56,948 nucleotides of DNA, taken from positions 1 to 56,948 of IMG/VR virus record IMGVR_UViG_3300037502_002662; one strand, 5' to 3'. Positions 1 to 56,948 of this stretch are shown here, one piece after another. Under the pieces are notes generated by a model. That model saw only the letters and a list, made by a program, of their open reading frames with translations, did not search any database and had not been told where the DNA came from. This DNA comes from a virus. The translations under genes were made by a program, and so were the position numbers. The stretch's first letter is position 1, and each line of letters opens with the position of its first letter.

Positions 1-105
<105 letters not shown>

Positions 106-134
<29 letters not shown>

Positions 135-1499: not shown

Positions 1500-2177
1500 A
1501 TGCGTAGATTTAAAGCTTATACAATAAATGAATTTAAAAATTATATTAATAATATACAGGTGGAGAGGGAGATTACACATGTCCAATATCACCACACGTG
1601 GAGACCGACAAAGAATGGTTTTTATATGGCTAAAGAAAAAGAAAAAGTTATATGGAGTATATGGAAATACCATACTTCTGTTAGATTTTGGCAAGATATA
1701 GCTCAGCATTTTACTATATCACCAGATGGTATGATATGGGATGGTAGAAGTTTAGAATTAGACCCTGCTGGTATTAAAGGACATAATAAAGGTGGTATAA
1801 TGATTGAAATGATAGGTAATTTCGATATAGGGCAGGAAAAATTAGATAATGGCCAATTATATGCAGCTACTAAAGCAGGTGCTATACTAGTTGAAAAATT
1901 TAATTTAACTACAAATGATATAGTATTTCATAATGAATTTTCAAATAAAACATGTCCAGGAAGTTCTATAAATAAAGATATGTTTGTAGGTTTAATACAA
2001 AATATAATAGATACAGAACTTAATAAGTTCGACAAGACAGATGGACTTAAATATTTAGCCAAGCAGGGTATAATAGAAAATCCAGAGAGATGGCTTAAAA
2101 AGTTAGATGAACCTATACCAATATGGGCCGTAACTACAATTCTTGCTAGAATTTATAAGGGGGTGAAAAATAAATGA
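1500..2177 (+). CDS. N-acetylmuramoyl-L-alanine amidase endolysin (Amidase_2)
   Basis: A 225-residue endolysin. The type 2 amidase domain fills about residues 20-170. The first Zn ligand is in QYHHTW (His31/32); the later ones are the His of FHNEF and the Cys of KTCPG. The GHNKGGIMIEMIGNF stretch matches the conserved core of the family. The enzyme cuts the bond between MurNAc and L-Ala in peptidoglycan. A short C-terminal tail (DGLKYLAKQGIIENPERW) looks like a small helical domain seen on clostridial phage lysins. It sits between the XhlA-like gene and the holin, and overlaps the holin by 4 bases. Confidence 0.9.
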   Translation: MRRFKAYTINEFKNYINNIQVEREITHVQYHHTWRPTKNGFYMAKEKEKVIWSIWKYHTSVRFWQDIAQHFTISPDGMIWDGRSLELDPAGIKGHNKGGIMIEMIGNFDIGQEKLDNGQLYAATKAGAILVEKFNLTTNDIVFHNEFSNKTCPGSSINKDMFVGLIQNIIDTELNKFDKTDGLKYLAKQGIIENPERWLKKLDEPIPIWAVTTILARIYKGVKNK

Positions 2178-2437
2178 TTGCTATGCAATATATAGTGGCT
2201 TTTGCTATGGGAGTCGTGAACGTATTTAAAGCACATATTCCATCTAAAGCAGTACCATTTGTAACAATGGGTTTGACGATAATATTTAATTTAGTAAATT
2301 CATATTTGTACGGTGAGGGTAACTTATTAATGGCAGGAAAAGATGCATTTATCGCAGGAGGTATTGCAGTAGGTATGTTCGCAGCTGGTGACGCTATTAG
2401 GAAGTCAGAACATACTCCGTTTAAAACACAAAGATAA
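2174..2437 (+). CDS. Holin
   Basis: An 87-residue hydrophobic protein starting at an ATGA overlap with the amidase stop, behind AAGGGGGTG. Two membrane segments are visible (about residues 5-22 and 28-46), with a third weaker hydrophobic stretch at about 58-73 and a charged C-terminus (RKSEHTPFKTQR). Size, topology and position at the end of the lysis cassette, just before a terminator, support a holin. A second in-frame Met at residue 4 leaves open a dual-start arrangement, as in some holins. Confidence 0.8.
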   Translation: MIAMQYIVAFAMGVVNVFKAHIPSKAVPFVTMGLTIIFNLVNSYLYGEGNLLMAGKDAFIAGGIAVGMFAAGDAIRKSEHTPFKTQR

Positions 2438-2691: not shown

Positions 2692-2700
2692 TGGTATAAT
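2692..2700 (+). promoter_or_regulatory. Extended -10 promoter for the 3D/YyaC operon
   Basis: TTTGTGGTATAATA, a TGn-TATAAT extended -10, lies 22 bases upstream of the start codon. The same TTTGTGGTATAATA string is upstream of the genes at 33365 (+) and 34868 (-). The -35 region is weak. Confidence 0.6.
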
Positions 2701-2721
2701 AAAAAAGAAAGGGGGATAAAA

Positions 2722-3300
2722 ATGAATAAAAACTCAATTTTAGCATTTTGTGCTTCTACCGCTATTGTTACAGGTTTAGTCACCTCAGCAATATATGATG
2801 ACAGAATAAATAAAGAAGTTAATGCAATGACTACACAGGTGGAGCAATTAAAAAGGGAGGTGGAACAACAGTCAAAGGAATATGATATATTATATGAGAG
2901 ACTAAGTGCAGCTAGAAAACGTCTTGAAGAGTTAAGTGATGATACTGAGGTATTAAAAGCTATAGCGCATAACTGTAATATAGATAAATTTAAAGTAACT
3001 GCTTACTCACCTTACGATGATAGAAATGGTTTAAATAGTGATGGCAACCCTAACTATACAGCAACAGGGATAACCCCTAAAGAAGGTACTATTGCTGTAA
3101 ATCCAGAAATTATACCTTATGGTTCTACAGTTGTAATAGTATATAATGATGGTACCATAGAAGTTGGACGAGCTGAAGATACTGGTGGGGCGCTGCGACG
3201 CAAGGGTAATATGCAGATTGATGTATTTAGACGTACATATGAGGAAGCCATGCGCCATGGCGTAAAAGAAGCCACTGTATTATGGTATAAGGAGGAATAA
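2722..3300 (+). CDS. Membrane-anchored coiled-coil protein with 3D (YuiC/YabE-type) domain
   Basis: A 192-residue protein. The ATG at 2722 follows GAAAGGGGG; the upstream TTG reading is not needed. Residues 7-22 are a hydrophobic signal-anchor. About residues 30-75 are a coiled coil. The C-terminal half is a 3D domain named for three conserved Asp: FKVTAYSP, AVNPEIIPYGS, GRAEDTGGAL and NMQIDVF are all present. In Firmicutes these domains have a lytic transglycosylase-like fold (YuiC, an Sps protein linked to sporulation or stationary phase). It is paired with a YyaC homologue 2 bases downstream under its own promoter. Role in the phage is inferred: cell-wall remodelling. Confidence 0.8.
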   Translation: MNKNSILAFCASTAIVTGLVTSAIYDDRINKEVNAMTTQVEQLKREVEQQSKEYDILYERLSAARKRLEELSDDTEVLKAIAHNCNIDKFKVTAYSPYDDRNGLNSDGNPNYTATGITPKEGTIAVNPEIIPYGSTVVIVYNDGTIEVGRAEDTGGALRRKGNMQIDVFRRTYEEAMRHGVKEATVLWYKEE

Positions 3301-3301
3301 T

Positions 3302-3781
3302 ATGGTATTTAATGTAGACGAATTAGAGGCTATACAAGCATACCTACAGGAGCTTGTAGATAAATACTCACCAGAAAAAATAGACCTTGTATGTTTAGGT
3401 ACCACAAGAATTGTAGGTGACTCTGTAGGACCTCTTATAGGTACTTCTATAAATCCAAAAAAGAAATTAAATATTATAGGCACAGTGTCCAAACCTATTT
3501 ATAGAAAAAACTACCATAAACGTATACAAGATAAAAGAAATGATGCATTATGCATTGCTATTGATGCATGTATAAGTGATGAATATAAAATTGGTACAAT
3601 TATAATAGAAGAAGTACCTCTTAAACCCGGCGCTGGTGTAGTAGACACACCTACAGAGGTTGGTGATATATCTATAAAATGTATTGTAGGTAGTAATTTA
3701 GATCAAGTAATAAATGCAGATTATATAAAAATCTATGAAATAGCTTATAATATAAGTACTATTATAAATAATATTTTTTGA
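3302..3781 (+). CDS. yyaC: YyaC-like sporulation protein (DUF1256)
   Basis: A 159-residue protein behind AAGGAGGAATA. It carries the YyaC/DUF1256 pattern: LVCLGTTRIVGDSVGPLIG near residue 30, IGTVSKPIYRKN, AIDACIS, then LKPGAGV and VGDISIKCIVG. YyaC is known in spore-forming Firmicutes as a sporulation protein related in fold to the germination protease GPR, and I do not know it as a usual phage gene. It is co-transcribed with the 3D-domain gene. Together they look like a host-derived, sporulation-linked moron placed between lysis genes and early genes. The family call is strong; the function in infection is unknown. Confidence 0.85.
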   Translation: MVFNVDELEAIQAYLQELVDKYSPEKIDLVCLGTTRIVGDSVGPLIGTSINPKKKLNIIGTVSKPIYRKNYHKRIQDKRNDALCIAIDACISDEYKIGTIIIEEVPLKPGAGVVDTPTEVGDISIKCIVGSNLDQVINADYIKIYEIAYNISTIINNIF

Positions 3782-3829
3782 TACTTTTGATACTTTTGAT
3801 ACTTTTGATACTTTTGATACTTTTGATAC
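3776..3829. repeat. Six tandem copies of a 9-bp repeat (TTTTGATAC)
   Basis: Six perfect copies start at the stop codon of the YyaC gene. Read on the other strand the unit is GTATCAAAA, close to the GTAGCAAAA and GTAGCGAAA units at 3927-3970 and 30.8-31.4 kb. This is an iteron-like array in a 348-base stretch without genes. Confidence 0.9.
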
Positions 3830-3926
3830 ATTATTTTTATTTTCTCACTCAAAAAAAATTTTTTAATATTATGTAGGTACCCACAAAAATATCTTTTTAA
3901 ATTTTTATTATAAGTAGGTAAAATGT

Positions 3927-4044
3927 GTAGCAAAAGTAACAAAGGTAGCAAAAGTAGCAAAGTAGCGAAAAATTAAGAAGTATTCTAAAGTAAAATAATA
4001 TCAATTTTTGTAGAAAATTCGTGGAGAAAATTCGTGGAGAAAAT
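3927..4044. repeat. Iteron-like 9-bp array and tandem 13-mers
   Basis: At 3927-3970 five near-identical units of the GTAGCAAAA type follow one another, the last being GTAGCGAAAA. At 4013-4038 two copies of GAAAATTCGTGGA follow, then a partial third. The 3782-4129 gap holds no credible gene; a minus-strand reading is only repeat translation. The arrays may bind a replication or regulatory protein. Confidence 0.75.
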
Positions 4045-4086: not shown

Positions 4087-4129
4087 ATAAATGAAGAAAA
4101 AATTAAAAATTTTTAAGGAGGTACAAATT

Positions 4130-4444
4130 ATGGTTGAAACTTATGAAGCTACTATTGTTTGTCCACATTGCGGTGGAGAAGTTCTTATTGAAAGGGATTT
4201 GCCTAAAAGAAGAGGTATGTTAGCAGGAAAGACACTTGAAGAAATGACTGATGAAGAATTAAAGATTGAAATCAGAAATGCAAAGTCAGCTCTTTACAAA
4301 GCGCAACAAAAAAATGCTAATGAAGAAACTATTTTAAGAAATAAAGTTAGGGTTGAAGCTGCTTTAGCTGAAAGAGAGAAAAGAGAAGCTGCTAAAAAAG
4401 AAGCGGAAGTAGAAGAAGCGGAAGTAGAAGAAGCGGAAATGTAA
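4130..4444 (+). CDS. Small zinc-finger/coiled-coil protein with acidic repeats
   Basis: A 104-residue protein. The ATG at 4130 follows AAGGAGGTACAAATT; the ATG 39 bases earlier has no binding site. The N-terminus has a CPHCGG knuckle, only one Cys pair, so any metal site would be shared or incomplete. A helical charged middle follows, and a C-terminus made of three near-perfect EAEVE units encoded by 15-bp DNA repeats. It forms a monocistronic unit between a promoter and a strong terminator, so it may be made abundantly. Family not recognised. Confidence 0.75.
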   Translation: MVETYEATIVCPHCGGEVLIERDLPKRRGMLAGKTLEEMTDEELKIEIRNAKSALYKAQQKNANEETILRNKVRVEAALAEREKREAAKKEAEVEEAEVEEAEM

Positions 4445-18363: not shown

Positions 18364-19000
18364 TAAATGTGGATGGGTTTTTCCATCTACCTATAATAAA
18401 TCACGTTGCAATATTTGTGGTAATTTACTAAGTATCCAATATTGTCCTAAATGTAAGCAATTTCTTCCGTTAAGTAATTTTTCATGGAGAAGCAGTGATA
18501 AAAGAGTCTTAAGGTCATATTGTGATGAGTGTCATAAAAGATTTGCTATAGAATATAGATTAAAATATCCTGAAAGATCTAAAAGATACCATAAAAATAC
18601 CTATATACGGCAGAATGAAGAAGTAGAGAAAAGATATAAAGAATGGCTTAGTACTATAAAGGCTTTAGGTAAAATATCTCCTTTAACTGAAGAAGAATGG
18701 CATGAAGCTGTAGACTTTTTTAAAGGGTGCGCAATATGTGGTGACCCACATATTGAAATTAGAACATTATTTATATTAACCAAATGCGGTGGTGGATACA
18801 ATAAAACTAATGTATTTCCTACATGTGCTACATGTGGAACAAGAAAGCGCACGCAAGAAAATCCTTTTAGGTGGTTACACTACAGACTAGGTAATTATCA
18901 ACATATGAATTTAAGTAAGCGTCGCACTGAGCGCTTAATTGGCTATTTGAAATCAAAAATTGAGGAGGTACAGAATGAAAGAAATATGGGTGCCGATTAA
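18341..19000 (+). CDS. Zinc-ribbon protein with HNH-like C-terminal module
   Basis: A 219-residue protein from GTG 18341 behind GGTGGAG. Residues 1-70 carry three Cys pairs (CSKC, CNIC, CPKC) and CDEC, as in many phage HNH proteins. Near residue 130, CAICGDPHIEIRTLFIL, then TKCGGGYNKTNVFPTC and CATCG, resemble the metal-bound HNH scaffold. The catalytic His pair is not in standard form, so it may be a degenerate or variant nuclease. Confidence 0.6.
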   Translation: MSVKRTCSKCGWVFPSTYNKSRCNICGNLLSIQYCPKCKQFLPLSNFSWRSSDKRVLRSYCDECHKRFAIEYRLKYPERSKRYHKNTYIRQNEEVEKRYKEWLSTIKALGKISPLTEEEWHEAVDFFKGCAICGDPHIEIRTLFILTKCGGGYNKTNVFPTCATCGTRKRTQENPFRWLHYRLGNYQHMNLSKRRTERLIGYLKSKIEEVQNERNMGAD

Positions 19001-19829
19001 AGACTATGAAGGTTTATATGAAGTTTCTAATAAAGGTAACATACGTGACGCACATGGCAAAAACCTTATTCCTAATGATAATGGTCAAAGATTACAGGTG
19101 ACGTTATGTAAAAATGGTATGCACAAAGAAGTAGCAATTCACAAAATAGTAGCAGAAACTTTTGTACCAAATGACGACCCAATAAATAAAATTATAATTA
19201 ATCATAGAGATGGCAACTATAGGAATAACTCTGTAGATAACTTAGAGTGGTGCACTCCACAGCATGGTAAGGATAATAAAATTAAAAAAGTATACCAGTT
19301 TAACAAATATTATAGTCTTATAGCACAATATTATTCAGCTAATGAAGCATCAAAGCAAACAGGGATATCTCTTAGAGATATCCTGGCTGCTTGTAATGGC
19401 GAAATAAAGTCAGCTGGTGGATATAAATGGAGCTACAGAGTGCCAAAAGAAGTAATACTGATGGACTTTACAGAAAATTTAGCTAGCTTATCAAAATGTG
19501 AGCAACGTAGTGTTGCTGCTATAATTACTGATTATAATATGAATCAAGTTTATAGTATTGGTGTTAATGGAGGTCCTGCTGGTGGTATAGATTGTCTATG
19601 CTCTTTAGGTGGTAAAGAAACGTGTATTCATGCAGAGACTCAGGCTATAGCAAAATGTACTATAAATGATAAAAATAAAATTATGTTTGTAACGCTGTCT
19701 CCCTGTGTAACATGTGCTTCATTAATAGTAAATAGTGGTTTTAATAAAGTATATTACAGAGAAGATTGGAAAGATAATCCCGGAGTTAAACTTCTCAGAG
19801 CTTCAGGTATTATAGTAAGTAAAATTTAG
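18975..19829 (+). CDS. HNH homing endonuclease fused to dCMP deaminase
   Basis: A 284-residue protein; ATG 18975 lies behind AGGAGGTACAG. The N-terminal half is a complete homing endonuclease: NUMOD4 (IWVPIKDYEGLYEVSNKG), HNH_3 (INHRDGNYRNNSVDNLEW), and a NUMOD1-like DNA-binding repeat (SANEASKQTGIS, then GGYKWSY). From Met163 (19461) a cytidine/dCMP deaminase follows, with Zn motifs CIHAETQ and SPCVTCA. The deaminase Met has a weak AAAGAAG site and may also be made alone. There is no intein splice motif. It would supply dUMP while the N-part may spread the gene. Confidence 0.85.
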   Translation: MKEIWVPIKDYEGLYEVSNKGNIRDAHGKNLIPNDNGQRLQVTLCKNGMHKEVAIHKIVAETFVPNDDPINKIIINHRDGNYRNNSVDNLEWCTPQHGKDNKIKKVYQFNKYYSLIAQYYSANEASKQTGISLRDILAACNGEIKSAGGYKWSYRVPKEVILMDFTENLASLSKCEQRSVAAIITDYNMNQVYSIGVNGGPAGGIDCLCSLGGKETCIHAETQAIAKCTINDKNKIMFVTLSPCVTCASLIVNSGFNKVYYREDWKDNPGVKLLRASGIIVSKI

Positions 19830-19920: not shown

Positions 19921-20030
19921 TCACGGACTCGTAAAATAGTCTTATGCGTGTTCGTGATACACAAGTTAATATTATAATATTAATAAGCTATCACGAACAC
20001 GTAAAATTTAAAACAAACACGCTACATGTA
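19921..20030 (+). promoter_or_regulatory. Promoter/operator module, copy B
   Basis: Sites TCACGGACTCGTAA (19921, +), GCGTGTTCGTGAT (19945, inverted) and TATCACGAACACGTAA (about 19990, +) surround the -10 sequence TATAATATTAATA. CACGCTACATGTA follows at 20018. It fills the 230-base gap before the winged-helix/polymerase gene run and matches the modules at 2492 and 26230. The winged-helix product encoded next is a natural candidate ligand. Confidence 0.7.
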
Positions 20031-26229: not shown

Positions 26230-26322
26230 TTATACGTGTCCGTGATAAAATTAATAGTACTATAATATTAATAAGGTTATCACGGACACGTAAAATTTAA
26301 AATAAGCATGTTACGTGTTATC
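26230..26322 (+). promoter_or_regulatory. Promoter/operator module, copy C
   Basis: TTATACGTGTCCGTGATAA (26230) and TTATCACGGACACGTAA (26277) form an inverted pair around TATAATATTAATA. GCATGTTACGTGTTATC follows at 26306. The arrangement matches modules A and B. It precedes twister 2, so the ribozyme would sit in the leader of this transcript. Confidence 0.7.
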
Positions 26323-32074: not shown

Positions 32075-32845
32075 TTATTTGGATACCAACATCTCCCTAA
32101 TTTTACTAAGTATTTCTTTACTATCTGAAGCCTTTAGTTTTTCAACATTGATTGTAGTTAACATATTTTCGATTTCTTTTTGTTTTTCTAATGCTTCAGC
32201 AGCTTTTGGATTACCGCTGTCTCTAAGCGTTTTCAATTGTTCTTCAACTTCAAGTAACTTTTTGTACCTTTCACTATTAGGGTCAAAGTCAGCTTTTGAT
32301 TTCATTATGGACTTTTTGGATTGAATATTTCTGATTGCCTTCCTTAATTTTTCTTGGTCGTTAGCTAACTCTTGGAGTTCATCTTCAGTATATTCTACTG
32401 TAGATCTTTTTGGACCACCACTTTTAGACTTAGGCTTGTCCGCAGCGATTCTAAGTAAATTTTCTGCAATCGCTGCTGTTACAAGCTTTTTATAGTTATC
32501 GATTGTCATTGTTTTTGATTTTGTGCGACTTCTTTTTGATTGTTGGCTCTTAATCATTCTGTCGATTTCATCATCCGTTGCTTGTTTTAGAAATTCAACG
32601 TCAACTTCTTGTAAGTTAGTAACTTGTGATATTAATTCATCCATAGCGTCATGTGATTTTTTACTTTCTTCAACCTTTGATTGATACTTTTCAACATCAG
32701 TAGCTATTTTGTTTAACACATCGTTTGCAACTTCTTCACTGGTAGCTACTAATTGTGCTGTGTAGGTCAACGACCTACCAGCTGTACTTTGCTGCTTGCC
32801 TCCTTCAGCAAAAAGTCCTTTCAAGTTGTTTTTGTTTGACATCAT
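32075..32845 (-). CDS. Coiled-coil protein with two IQSKK motifs (unrecognised family)
   Basis: A 256-residue, highly charged, helical protein; ATG 32845 lies behind GTGGAGG on the minus strand. Two related segments are visible: RMIKSQQSKR (about 96-105), followed by a Tyr and a helix, and KAIRNIQSKKS (169-179), followed by Tyr-x5-VEEQLK. The protein at 34353 carries two more. I do not recognise the family. The surrounding DNA has dispersed repeats, so a DNA-binding or partition role is possible but unproved. Confidence 0.7.
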   Translation of the reverse strand: MMSNKNNLKGLFAEGGKQQSTAGRSLTYTAQLVATSEEVANDVLNKIATDVEKYQSKVEESKKSHDAMDELISQVTNLQEVDVEFLKQATDDEIDRMIKSQQSKRSRTKSKTMTIDNYKKLVTAAIAENLLRIAADKPKSKSGGPKRSTVEYTEDELQELANDQEKLRKAIRNIQSKKSIMKSKADFDPNSERYKKLLEVEEQLKTLRDSGNPKAAEALEKQKEIENMLTTINVEKLKASDSKEILSKIREMLVSK

Positions 32846-32903
32846 TTTACCAACCTCCACTTTGTAATTTTTTTTGAAAAGAAATTTTTCTTTTCTTAAT
32901 TAT

Positions 32904-32912
32904 ATTATACTA
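32904..32912 (-). promoter_or_regulatory. Leftward promoter -10
   Basis: Minus-strand TTTGTAGTATAATATAA, 59 bases before the start codon, is a variant of the TTTGTGGTATAATA promoter family seen elsewhere in this genome. Confidence 0.6.
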
Positions 32913-32939
32913 CAAATAACTGAAATTTAATTAAGCAAT

Positions 32940-33300
32940 TTGGATTTGGAGCAGCGACCACTAGTGTGATTATGTCGTTTTATATCTTTGGTCCGTTTTA
33001 TGCAGCAGGTTTTGGCTAATCATTATCGCATGTAATTCTACTATGCTTGGTCAAATTGACGCTGCATGATGCGCTATGTAGTTCAATCTAACTGATGTTG
33101 TTTTTATTGCTGCTTGATTAGGATTTACCAAAGCTTCATGAAGTATTGCATAGCTAGTTCTAATCGTTGCTTCTATGTTAACTTAGATTTAGCTGACTGC
33201 CGCTGAATTCATAAAGTGATATTGTAATATTATTTAGTTTGACTGAAGCCGCATAGGGGTATGCCTTTAGCAATTATTAGTTGAACGGCGCTGATCCAAT
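32940..33300. repeat. Non-coding array of degenerate ~20-bp repeats
   Basis: About every 33-50 bases a related sequence recurs, e.g. GGTCAAATTGACGCTGCATG (33049), TAGTTCTAATCGTTGCTTC, TAGATTTAGCTGACTGCCGC, TAGTTTGACTGAAGCCGCAT, TAGTTGAACGGCGCTGATCC (33279). Units share a TAG-TT-AAYYG-CGCTGCAT-like pattern with the copies at 31.5-31.8, 33.8, 34.0 and 35.2 kb. No gene is seen. Confidence 0.55.
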
Positions 33301-33331
33301 TTAAAATTACTTGTGTAAACTTCAACATTTT

Positions 33332-33341
33332 GTGGTATAAT
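33332..33341 (+). promoter_or_regulatory. Extended -10 promoter
   Basis: TTTGTGGTATAATATAA lies 24 bases before the next gene. A weak TTGTGT -35 lies 19 bases upstream of the -10. Confidence 0.65.
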
Positions 33342-33364
33342 ATAAATAAGAGGTTGATTTTAAA

Positions 33365-33742
33365 ATGAAAAAACTAACAGCTGCTGACAAAAATATTATA
33401 TTGGAGGTGGTTAGCAATAAATTAAACTTGATAGCATACGACGATGCTACAAAACTGAGAGATGACTTATGGCAAGAAAATTTCATCAGTTTGCTTCAGG
33501 CTAAATACAATTTACGATGTGAAACATATAGCGATGAGCTACAGCTGCTAAAAGAACATTTGATGCTGCTAGTTGAAATCTATTTGAGGAAAATTGACAA
33601 ACACCAAGAGATTAATGCATTCTTCGATATCAAAATAACAGTGAATGACGTTGAATATGAAATACCGTTAGATTGCGATGTGTATAATACGCTGGTAGAT
33701 TTTATTGATAAAAAACTTGGTATTGAAGATGATAGTGAGTAG
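33365..33742 (+). CDS. Hypothetical protein in its own transcription unit
   Basis: A 125-residue acidic protein. The N-terminal two thirds are helical, then FFDIKITVNDVEYEIPLD suggests a beta hairpin. It has its own promoter and a terminator overlapping its stop codon. It is the only rightward gene in the island. Function unknown. Confidence 0.7.
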   Translation: MKKLTAADKNIILEVVSNKLNLIAYDDATKLRDDLWQENFISLLQAKYNLRCETYSDELQLLKEHLMLLVEIYLRKIDKHQEINAFFDIKITVNDVEYEIPLDCDVYNTLVDFIDKKLGIEDDSE

Positions 33743-33768
33743 CCATTAGTGGCTACTTTCTTTTTTTA
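33739..33768 (+). terminator. Rho-independent terminator
   Basis: GTAGCCA-TTAG-TGGCTAC followed by TTTCTTTTTTT, overlapping the stop codon of the preceding gene. Confidence 0.9.
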
Positions 33769-33892
33769 CTTTTTATGCGGCAGCTGATGGTAATGCTAAA
33801 CCGTTTTATAGCAATTGCTTAGCCCAATCAAAGCTTTTATGGTGTTGCGTAGTCTTAACCAATCGACGCTGATTACAGAATATTTAAAATGT

Positions 33893-34140
33893 TTAGAATA
33901 TTCTGACAATTTTGAAGACTCGAAGTACTTAGAATATTCTGACAATTTCGAAGACTCGAAGTACTTAGAATATTCTGACAATTTCGAAGACTCGCGTTGT
34001 GTGACAATTGATTTGGCTGATCGAGGCCGCATAGCATTCATTAGGTAAATTGTCAGAATATTCTGACAATTTTGAAGACACGCATTACCAGAAAAGTGAA
34101 GGCTCGCATTACCAGAATATACATAATATTCTGAATATTC
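33893..34140. repeat. 36-bp tandem repeats and a 26-bp palindrome
   Basis: A 36-bp unit beginning TTAGAATATTCTGACAATTT occurs at 33893, 33929 and (partial) 33965. A perfect 26-base palindrome with core TTGTCAGAATATTCTGACAA is at 34047-34072, and further GAATATTCTGACAATT copies lie near 34125 and at 35.2 kb. These are probably binding sites for a dimeric protein. The minus-strand open frame across them looks like repeat translation. Confidence 0.75.
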
Positions 34141-34217
34141 TGACAATTCAAAGCCTATCTCCCCCTCGGTCTCCACGGCATATTTCCCTTAAATATGCCC
34201 CCTTTAGGGTGAAGAGG

Positions 34218-34319
34218 CTATTTCATTAACCTCTTCATTCTATTTAAACCTTTGAAGGTAGGCTCTATACTCATTTCTTTACATATCCTTAAGTACAATC
34301 TTAAAATCTTTATGTTCAT
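34218..34319 (-). CDS. Small basic protein
   Basis: A 33-residue basic peptide (MNIKILRLYLRICKEM, then LNRMKRLMK) behind CAAGGGGG on the minus strand. It follows the gene ending at 34353 and probably shares its transcript; a GAAGAGG/CCTCTTC hairpin overlaps its stop. Function unknown. Confidence 0.55.
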   Translation of the reverse strand: MNIKILRLYLRICKEMSIEPTFKGLNRMKRLMK

Positions 34320-34339
34320 TTGTTCAACCCCCTTGATTT

Positions 34340-34370
34340 GATGAGTTAAACCTTAAAGGTTTAACTCATC
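34340..34370 (-). other. 31-base palindromic stem over a stop codon
   Basis: GATGAGTTAAACC pairs with GGTTTAACTCATC around a small loop that contains the TAA stop of the gene at 34353-34868. No T-tract follows. It may limit read-through or stabilise the mRNA. Confidence 0.6.
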
Positions 34371-34868
34371 ATTATTTAAGTCTTTTAGTAGTTGTATTAC
34401 ATATTCTTTATCTAATTTTTCTTCTTGATTTTCTAGATGATTTATTAGATTATTTATTGAAGATTTTCTTACACAATATTCAGGAACTGGTTTAATCGTT
34501 TCTTTATGTTCTAGTAACATTTTTTCAATTTCACAAGCTTTATTATATTCTGTTTTATCTTCATCATATTGTGAATTACATTTTTTAGATTGAATTGATT
34601 TTATTGCTCTTAAAGTTTCTTCATAGTTTAGATTTTTAATATCTTCTTGTTCAAATTCTGTGACAAATTTTTTCCTTGGTTCAAAATAAGCTTTAACTTC
34701 TTTTAGTGCTTGTTCATATTCTAGTAGTTTTTTCATTTTTGATTCATAATCTTTTCTTGCTTTTTGTTTTTTCAATCTGCACTTTTTAGTTTGTACATTT
34801 CTTATCTCTTTTTTCACCTCTTTTACATTTTTGAATTTTTTGCTTAATTCTTGTACATTTTTTAACAT
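34353..34868 (-). CDS. Coiled-coil protein with two IQSKK motifs (paralogue of the gene at 32075)
   Basis: A 171-residue basic, helical protein behind AAGGAGGGA. Two segments share the motif of its neighbour: EIRNVQTKKC (21-30), followed by KDYESKMKKLLEYEQAL, and RAIKSIQSKKC (87-97), followed by TEYNKACEIEKMLLEHK. The pattern is I-x-x-(I/V)-Q-(S/T)-K-K-(C/S), about 13 residues, Tyr, then a helix with I/L-E. Family and function unknown. Confidence 0.7.
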   Translation of the reverse strand: MLKNVQELSKKFKNVKEVKKEIRNVQTKKCRLKKQKARKDYESKMKKLLEYEQALKEVKAYFEPRKKFVTEFEQEDIKNLNYEETLRAIKSIQSKKCNSQYDEDKTEYNKACEIEKMLLEHKETIKPVPEYCVRKSSINNLINHLENQEEKLDKEYVIQLLKDLNNDELNL

Positions 34869-55132: not shown

Positions 55133-56305
55133 ATGACCTGGCAAGAACCTAAAACAGATTGGACATCTGCAGACGGTGTAACAGATGCAGATCTTAATAG
55201 GATTGAGGGGAATACAGAGGAGGTAAAAACTGATTTAGATAATCACAAAAGTGATACAGCAAATCCCCACAATGTAACGGCAGCCCAACTAGGTGGTTCT
55301 AGTATATTAGCACAACTAAAAACTGTAGACGGTTCCGGTAGTGGATTAGATGCAGATTTATTGGATGGTAAGCAGACATCTTCAATAGGAAACAGATGGG
55401 ACGTAGTACCTTTTATAGGTTTCGACGGAGTAATGGAAGTTGGAAAGTATATAGATTTTCACGAAAGTGATACAGATACTAGTGATTACAGCGTAAGAGT
55501 ATTTTCAGAATCCGGTATTTTATATATAAATGGTAATAAAATTTGGCATAAAGGTAATGATGGAAGTGGTAGTGGATTAGATGCAGATTTGCTTGATGGA
55601 TGGCATAGAGACAGTATAAGAAATTGGAATAATATACTAAATAAACCTGCCACATTCACACCTTCCGCACACCAGCACGCTGGTGGAGATATAACAAGTG
55701 CTGTTGCAAATGCAGTAAATGTTACAGGAGAGGTAAAATCAAGTGCAAAAATATATGGAAAAGTAGGGGAATGGGAGTTATTTAAGGATGTAGGAGAACC
55801 TATCTCACAATTCGCTAGTCCAGGTACTAGTCCTCAAGGATTAGCATGGGATGGAACTTATTTATGGAACGCAGACAATGATACAGACCAAATTTATAAG
55901 TTAAATACGACAGGTACTATTATCTCACAATTCGCTAGTCCAGGTACTAGTCCTCAAGGATTAGCATGGGATGGAACTTATTTATGGAATGCAGACAATG
56001 GTGCAGACCAAATATATAAGTTAAATACGACAGGTACTATTATCTCACAATTCGCTAGTCCATATGCTTATCCTCAAGGATTAGCATGGGATGGAACTTA
56101 TTTATGGAACGCAGACAATGATACAGACCAAATATATAAGTTAAATACGACAGGTACTATTATCTCACAATTCGCTAGTCCAGGTACTAGTCCTCAAGGA
56201 TTAGCATGGGATGGAACTTATTTATGGAACGCAGACAATAGTGCAGACCGAATTTATAAGTTGGATACAACAGGTACCTACCACTTAGTTGTTAAAAAAC
56301 AATAA
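55133..56305 (+). CDS. Tail fibre with four near-identical 40-residue repeats
   Basis: A 390-residue protein behind ATAGGAGGTG. The N-terminal part has the tail-fibre GSGLDADLLDG motif twice, with NPHNVTAAQLGG between fibre head and shaft. Residues about 223-382 are four propeller-blade-like repeats (PQGLAWDGTYLWNADN, IYKLNTTGT). Differences between units concentrate at SPxxxPQ and DNxxD. Probably the receptor-contacting fibre. Confidence 0.75.
   Translation: MTWQEPKTDWTSADGVTDADLNRIEGNTEEVKTDLDNHKSDTANPHNVTAAQLGGSSILAQLKTVDGSGSGLDADLLDGKQTSSIGNRWDVVPFIGFDGVMEVGKYIDFHESDTDTSDYSVRVFSESGILYINGNKIWHKGNDGSGSGLDADLLDGWHRDSIRNWNNILNKPATFTPSAHQHAGGDITSAVANAVNVTGEVKSSAKIYGKVGEWELFKDVGEPISQFASPGTSPQGLAWDGTYLWNADNDTDQIYKLNTTGTIISQFASPGTSPQGLAWDGTYLWNADNGADQIYKLNTTGTIISQFASPYAYPQGLAWDGTYLWNADNDTDQIYKLNTTGTIISQFASPGTSPQGLAWDGTYLWNADNSADRIYKLDTTGTYHLVVKKQ
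55801..56280 (+). repeat. Four 120-bp tandem repeats inside the fibre gene
   Basis: Units start at 55801, 55921, 56041 and 56161 and are nearly identical, multiples of 3 in length. Such arrays can expand or contract in frame by recombination. Confidence 0.95.

Positions 56306-56771: not shown

Positions 56772-56948
<177 letters not shown>

Follow-up and report, generated by a model that had tools for sequence, protein, structure and literature searches.

A conserved two-gene viral unit of a 3D-domain protein and a diverged YyaC homologue

Two adjacent genes on the plus strand of a phage genome, gene 1 (positions 2722 to 3300) encoding a 3D-domain protein and gene 2 (3302 to 3781) encoding a diverged YyaC/DUF1256 homologue, are a real, conserved and self-contained two-gene viral unit whose members are inseparable in the records found. 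The window, which is the whole stretch of 56,948 nucleotides analysed here (IMG/VR record IMGVR_UViG_3300037502_002662), shares the pair, its order and its slot with five other phages. The new points are this conservation in the same slot and the separate clade formed by these YyaC proteins, each gene alone being already known from phages. An accessory-lysis and host-takeover cassette, in which gene 1 would cut the wall and gene 2 would cleave a host protein, is preferred over the sporulation reading of the original prediction, and its chances of being right and of being wrong appear about equal. YyaC has been recorded in a number of phages, where an influence on sporulation was suspected, but as a lone gene and without a hint of its function. 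An inseparable pair with a wall enzyme, under its own promoter and in lytic-looking phages, provides a genetic context that narrows the hypotheses and makes them testable with two small genes.

Genome carrying the pair

The ends of the window (1 to 134 and 56819 to 56948) share an overlap of 131 bp that has a single-base gap and falls in an A-rich stretch with an AAT microsatellite, and therefore the window is a complete circular phage genome of about 56.8 kb and not a chimera, despite the absence of end repeats from its IMG/VR record. The circular join crosses a small ORF, beginning at about 56772, with a poly-Asn tract encoded by the AAT microsatellite. In the window, the tail-fibre, subtilase and lysis regions are divided between the two ends, whereas a single contig of the relative G044 has them in the same order.

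The structural and packaging genes include those for TerL, a portal, a scaffold, major head and tail proteins and a tape measure, and the other genes include those for a DNA polymerase, a primase-helicase, a ligase, a RecE-like exonuclease, a sigma factor, an amidase and a holin. Neither the window nor any other pair-bearing record yielded a tyrosine integrase. This phage is apparently a virulent siphophage, for which a lytic lifestyle is probable. The reading of the window as an integrated prophage was rejected because the search of the window for a tyrosine integrase was negative and the ends overlap circularly. A tyrosine recombinase gene adjoins the endolysin gene in G057 (L188, 2109 to 2945) and also in G056, the other relatives having none. 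A DNA-level search of phages with positions 1 to 25000 as the query found no near relative, and a search for the host, in which the major head protein was compared with 398 genomes of the phylum, had a top match of 52% identity, in a 1.2-Mb genome.

Several other features of the window are recorded here. The late/lysis region contains a subtilase with an S-layer-homology domain (106 to 1140), which is also present in G044, and L180 has a subtilase-like ORF. At 18960 to 19829, an HNH endonuclease part (residues 5 to 183) and a dCMP deaminase part (residues 166 to 288) are fused in one frame. A tail-fibre-like gene at 55801 to 56277 has four 120-bp repeats that are 92% alike and gives weak SMP-30/propeller-type matches. 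ORFs on the minus strand at 32075 to 34868 coincide with a changed AT skew, and those tested have no PHROG or Pfam family match.

Conservation of the pair in related phages

With the aligned 3D proteins as the query, a search of viral contigs retrieved five other IMG/VR records, each with a DUF1256 gene downstream, and a query built from the six YyaC proteins retrieved the same five. The claim of the original prediction that the two genes are adjacent and form one unit is thus borne out in six phages, and the survey of phage genomes that it proposed rules out the absence of the pair from other phages. The sample comprises six phages, three of which are contigs of 6 to 15 kb, and the pattern-based scans have limited sensitivity, so that there may be further, more divergent pairs. 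With the window YyaC alone as the query, a scan of viral contigs found nothing, its patterns being too specific, and the alignment of canonical YyaC gave 37 viral loci with a pattern that demands the residues DR and is blind to the clade of the window.

The gene order of lysis genes, 3D gene, yyaC, zinc-ribbon gene and helicase gene is retained among these phages; L180 has an additional sigma-factor-like ORF behind yyaC, and G044 has an 80-residue ORF between the 3D gene and yyaC. The head protein, with 27 matches, identified eight large relatives, of which two have both genes and six have neither, some of these six being incomplete contigs. In one relative, G060, the slot is occupied by a gene for a membrane-anchored SLT lytic transglycosylase with a transmembrane segment (L197, 3635 to 4450), with no YyaC. 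Displacement of the same kind is known between Rpf and Sps proteins (PMC1084345). In 80 bacterial loci with YyaC, no 3D gene was found within a distance of about 4 kb, and therefore the pair was not copied from an evident host operon. Most YyaC phages elsewhere have no 3D gene nearby. An unrelated phage contig (L045, 5947 to 8564) has a canonical YyaC gene and a gene for a 3D protein with a transmembrane segment about 1.4 kb apart on one strand, with other genes between them, and therefore closeness of YyaC and 3D genes may have arisen more than once.

Slot, promoter and flanking elements

The pair is located after the terminator of the late operon and before the early genes. Directly upstream, at the end of the late operon, profile matches identify an amidase_2 endolysin gene (1500 to 2177, plus strand) and a holin gene (2174 to 2437, plus strand). 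A terminator scan places the intrinsic terminator that closes the late/lysis operon, AATACCGGATATATCCGGTATT-TTTTATT, at 2446 to 2467 on the plus strand. As this terminator precedes the pair, the pair lies outside the late operon, as had been proposed. Hairpin and T-run sequences are also found upstream of the pair in G038 and G044, where these regions were read.

A housekeeping-type promoter at 2671 to 2700 on the plus strand, seen by eye and by promoter scan, consists of a weak −35-like TTAATA (2671 to 2676) and the extended −10 element TGGTATAAT at 2692 to 2700 (TGG at 2692 to 2694, TATAAT at 2695 to 2700), in agreement with the extended −10 promoter originally assigned to the unit. The site 2692 to 2700 is among the top-scoring promoter-like sites in the first 10 kb, in a scan that by itself is near chance (63 sites found versus 54.6 expected). 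TATAAT occurs 16 to 30 nt upstream of the 3D start codon in all six pair phages and is TG-extended in four of them, the chance of TATAAT in a random 20-nt stretch of the window being 0.024. A perfect palindrome, AAGGAAAATTTCCTT, touches the −35 region at 2658 to 2672 and is a possible operator. The intergenic motif ATTAATA..TATCACGRACACGTAAAATTTAAAA..AACACGTTACATGT is common to positions 2492 to 2612, 19921 to 20030 and 26245 to 26320, often in two opposite copies, and looks like a phage operator or promoter family. In G038 and G044, similar TCACGGAC/TTCGTGA words are present ahead of the pair.

The ribosome-binding site of the 3D gene is a AAAGGGGGA-like sequence at 2708 to 2716 on the plus strand. 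At the junction of the two genes (3290 to 3304, plus strand), a GGAGG sequence within the end of gene 1 is followed by the stop codon TAA (3298 to 3300) and the start codon ATG (3302 to 3304), an arrangement suggesting that translation of gene 2 may be coupled to that of gene 1. The 3D and yyaC reading frames overlap in four of the six phages. The 3′ boundary of the unit is a long hairpin (z = −5.3) at 3776 to 3970 formed by two inverted intergenic arrays, (TTTTGATAC)x6 at 3776 to 3829 and (GTAGCAAAA)x5 at 3927 to 3970, which are possibly an origin or a regulatory element. G038 has a different, weak inverted repeat at the matching place. The right marker of the slot is a zinc-ribbon-like early-region gene (4091 to 4444, plus strand), which is retained in relatives with or without the pair.

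Gene 1 product

Gene 1 encodes a protein of 192 residues and likely starts at ATG 2722, since a longer frame from TTG 2689 would begin within the promoter. The start at 2692 in the original prediction is accordingly the promoter, and the gene proper runs from 2722. The 3D domain named in that prediction is confirmed by a match to PF06725 (E = 3.6e-8, 33.9 bits versus a cut-off of 23.8), and the 3D proteins of the three relatives scanned score 40 to 48 bits against the same profile. Hydrophobicity, alignment and a structural model give a layout of an N-terminal membrane anchor or signal peptide (about residues 6 to 22), a coiled coil (about residues 26 to 82) and a C-terminal 3D/MltA-type domain (residues 123 to 185). 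The model has a pLDDT of 76.9 with a weak stretch at residues 100 to 109, and MltA entries are among its top PDB matches (E of about 4e-4 to 1e-3).

Asp-153 and Asp-167 are invariant in the alignment of the six phages. Asp-167 corresponds to Asp-162 of YuiC, the catalytic residue, and Asp-153 to Asp-151 of YuiC, the substrate residue, by the roles given in PMC4499186. The third Asp, in the AVDP motif (YuiC Asp-129), is Asn-127 in the window only and Asp in the other five phages. Since one of the three name-giving Asp residues is replaced by Asn, the activity of the window copy is uncertain. The SLT transglycosylase in the G060 slot suggests that gene 1 serves in wall cleavage. The product is a putative MltA-type lytic transglycosylase, predicted from its sequence to be membrane-anchored and outward-facing. 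In a defence-gene library, gene 1 has only a coiled-coil-type match and gene 2 has none.

Gene 2 product

Gene 2 encodes a protein of 159 residues, and the original assignment to YyaC/DUF1256 stands. The match to PF06866 has E = 8.6e-28 (97.3 bits versus 27), that to PHROG 8268, annotated as spore protease, has E = 2e-24, and the score against TIGR02841 (spore_YyaC) is 86.1 bits versus a cut-off of 84.9. The YyaC proteins of the five relatives score 37.5 to 79.9 bits against TIGR02841, under the equivalog cut-off. Gene 2 covers positions 3 to 111 of the 140 positions of this profile, and the relatives cover a similar part, whereas canonical YyaC covers 1 to 140. The NTRLSLV-type C-terminal segment (positions 112 to 140) is missing from the window YyaC, and the proteins of the clade are shorter than canonical YyaC. 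The GTDR signature is GTTR in the window and GAPS, GAPN, GTPR, GTPK and GNPA in the relatives.

The acidic residues are retained in spite of this divergence. Asp-40 (codon 3419 to 3421) and Asp-88 (codon 3563 to 3565) are invariant and align to the TPDxLGP and IDAL motifs of GPR, which carry its catalytic Asp pair. By contrast, Asp-35, the Asp of the GTDR signature that the clade of the window lacks, is retained in 10 of 10 phage YyaC proteins collected without a motif filter; these ten are the unbiased comparison, the figure of 49 of 49 being biased by a search pattern that itself requires DR. The AlphaFold model has a pLDDT of 95.6, and its nearest folds are HycI (5zby, Z = 14.5) and GPR (1c8b, Z = 14.3 over 153 residues), so that the comparison with GPR put forward as a check on the original prediction comes out in its favour. 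There is no significant match to the model in a viral structure library. The GPR/HycI fold and the invariant acidic pair together make it likely that gene 2 encodes an aspartate-dependent endopeptidase of the GPR/HybD fold. A GPR-like cleavage motif is absent from the window proteins scanned, in a crude test.

Selection and recombination

In the closest pair of phages, G038 and G067, the 3D gene has a dN/dS of 0.25 and yyaC one of 0.17, indicating purifying selection on both; in more distant comparisons the synonymous sites are saturated. The six YyaC proteins form one clade (support values of 100/99) that is distinct from the 80 bacterial and 36 other viral sequences, in a tree with long branches and an unsure deeper placement, for which most comparison sequences were gathered by a DR-requiring pattern. 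G038 and G067 share 92 to 97% identity over most of the block that runs from the promoter to the zinc-ribbon gene but 41 to 67% on the holin side. The DNA of yyaC in G066 (L176, 3512 to 3979) is only 62 to 73% identical to that of L063 and L178, whereas its flanks are about 90 to 96% identical. By these identities, the G066 gene is a precise replacement by a distant allele, and the cassette, as well as its protease gene, appears to move between phages by recombination.

Proposed role of the cassette and alternatives

In the preferred model, the cassette would be transcribed autonomously from the extended −10 promoter by the host RNA polymerase with its housekeeping sigma factor, and this housekeeping-type promoter of its own makes it probable that the cassette is made early and not with the late operon. 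The gene 1 product, as a membrane-anchored MltA/3D transglycosylase, would cut glycan strands and aid the holin and amidase in opening the wall, as does the Tgl protein of Kayvirus. Gene 2, on the same message, would supply a small cytosolic peptidase of the GPR/HybD fold, its acidic pair intact, that cuts a host protein during infection. The position by the amidase and holin genes, the host-type promoter and the SLT swap in G060 match the logic of Kayvirus Tgl. Besides the Asn replacement in the window copy of gene 1 and the small sample, two points tell against this model. A muralytic enzyme acting outside and a protease acting inside have no obvious shared step and yet are never apart in the lineage, which plain accessory lysis leaves unexplained, and YyaC homologues elsewhere are sporulation proteins.

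The latter point leads to the alternative closest to the original prediction, in which the phage steers sporulation or dormancy: YyaC would degrade SASPs or forespore proteins and the 3D enzyme would open or remodel the wall like a resuscitation factor, so that spore completion is blocked or trapped genomes are re-awakened. YyaC is a core sporulation gene (PMC3533761) and is needed for sporulation in B. anthracis (PMC12700454), and yyaC1/yyaC2 are needed for sporulation/germination in C. perfringens (PMC9332280). The title of a study cited in PMC5786514 (Wetzel & Fischer 2015) has the C. acetobutylicum YyaC cleaving SASPs. Wherever an isolate phage with YyaC has a named host, that host forms endospores (C. 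difficile, Lysinibacillus, P. larvae, B. megaterium and B. australimaris), phage sporulation-like sigma factors lower spore yield (PMC9429907), and the 3D/Sps proteins are functional analogues of Rpf (PMC4499186). The same paper, however, proposes that Sps proteins have no role in spore formation or germination. In addition, the promoter is of housekeeping type, this YyaC clade has neither the GTDR Asp nor the C-terminal part of canonical YyaC, and six large relatives lack the pair. Furthermore, canonical YyaC is present in five Exiguobacterium species (L115, L123, L130, L136 and L137; one was checked against TIGR02841), a genus of which two surveyed genomes were reported to have no spore sigma factors or SASP genes (PMC3533761). 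Therefore, YyaC homology alone is not proof of a spore role, and YyaC may function outside spores. The proposal that the unit steers or exploits host sporulation is thus unsupported, and this alternative is possible but on the whole unlikely. A related view, which is held to be rather doubtful, is that of a counter-dormancy cassette in which a diverged GPR/YyaC protease, its target changed by allele exchange, and an Rpf/Sps-like wall enzyme would allow virulent Bacillota phages to halt or reverse host dormancy so that lytic growth finishes.

The YyaC-like protein could instead be a protease dedicated to the maturation or quality control of a phage protein, of which the co-translated 3D protein is the simplest candidate and a lysis or virion protein another, much as HybD and HycI process hydrogenase subunits. 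The strict one-to-one linkage, the overlapping frames and a fold as near to HycI as to GPR are consistent with this. But the 3D protein has few residues before its membrane segment, only its precursor would meet a cytosolic protease, the crude scan of phage proteins for a GPR-like cleavage motif is negative, and most other phage YyaC proteins have no 3D neighbour; this role is improbable. Selfish or neutral cargo, swapped among phages at the slot with little benefit to them, would account for the highly similar promoter-to-zinc-ribbon block of G038 and G067, for the exchange of yyaC alone in G066 and for the absence of the pair from six of eight large relatives. It is very improbable, since open frames, acidic pairs and the promoter are retained at amino-acid identities down to about 32 to 45% and the closest pair of phages has a dN/dS of 0.17 to 0.25. 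An assembly chimera of host genes joined to a phage contig has a negligible probability. Apart from the occurrence of both families in bacterial chromosomes, no support for it was found, and it is refuted by the circular overlap of the ends and by five other contigs in which the pair has the same context; nor do the 80 bacterial loci offer a 3D gene near YyaC. The preferred model is still that of accessory lysis combined with host takeover.

Comparison with known systems

Earlier work has reported YyaC from phiCD211-like phages and from P. larvae prophages (PMC5786514, PMC10778935, PMC9341999), and 3D proteins are known in SPbeta (PMC4499186) and also occur in SPO1-like phages. In the literature searched, neither the 3D–YyaC pair nor this YyaC clade was found. 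A catalogue of phage sporulation genes (PMC10294663), which shares with the work on sigma factors (PMC9429907) the general idea of sporulation-gene homologues in phages, does not list yyaC or 3D genes in its Table 1 or describe the pair. Like gene 2, the DUF1256/YyaC proteins of the large C. difficile phages phiCD211, phiCDIF1296T and phiCD5763 (PMC5786514, PMC10778935), of P. larvae prophages and phage Lilo (PMC9341999) and of Bacillus phage G (gp219) have the GPR-type acidic pair. Unlike gene 2, they have no adjacent 3D gene, mostly carry the canonical GTDR or GSDR signature and fall outside the clade of the window, and the neighbour of YyaC in phiCDIF1296T is a phosphatase-like gene. GPR (1c8b, 7c4x) and HycI/HybD share the core fold (Z of about 14) and the acidic pair with gene 2, which is half the size of GPR and lacks its extra parts. 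Like gene 1, the Sps proteins YuiC, YabE and YocH, SPO1 gp2.8 and SPbeta YorM have the 3D catalytic domain and are membrane-bound or secreted, but they are encoded by single genes without a tie to YyaC, and in the window copy Asn stands in place of the first of the three Asp residues.

A close parallel for gene 1 is the secreted transglycosylase Tgl of Kayvirus, which serves as a further endolysin and is encoded beside the late lysis genes under its own host-type promoter (PMC7150955). By the criteria of that study, gene 1 has a Tgl-like layout, namely a predicted transglycosylase whose gene is next to the lysis module and has a host-type promoter of its own. Tgl differs in having a lysozyme/IsaA-like domain instead of the 3D/MltA domain and in having no protease partner. 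If the protease of the window did act on a dormancy protein, the cassette would be a direct protein-level counter to sporulation and not one that works by way of sigma factors or Spo0A homologues.
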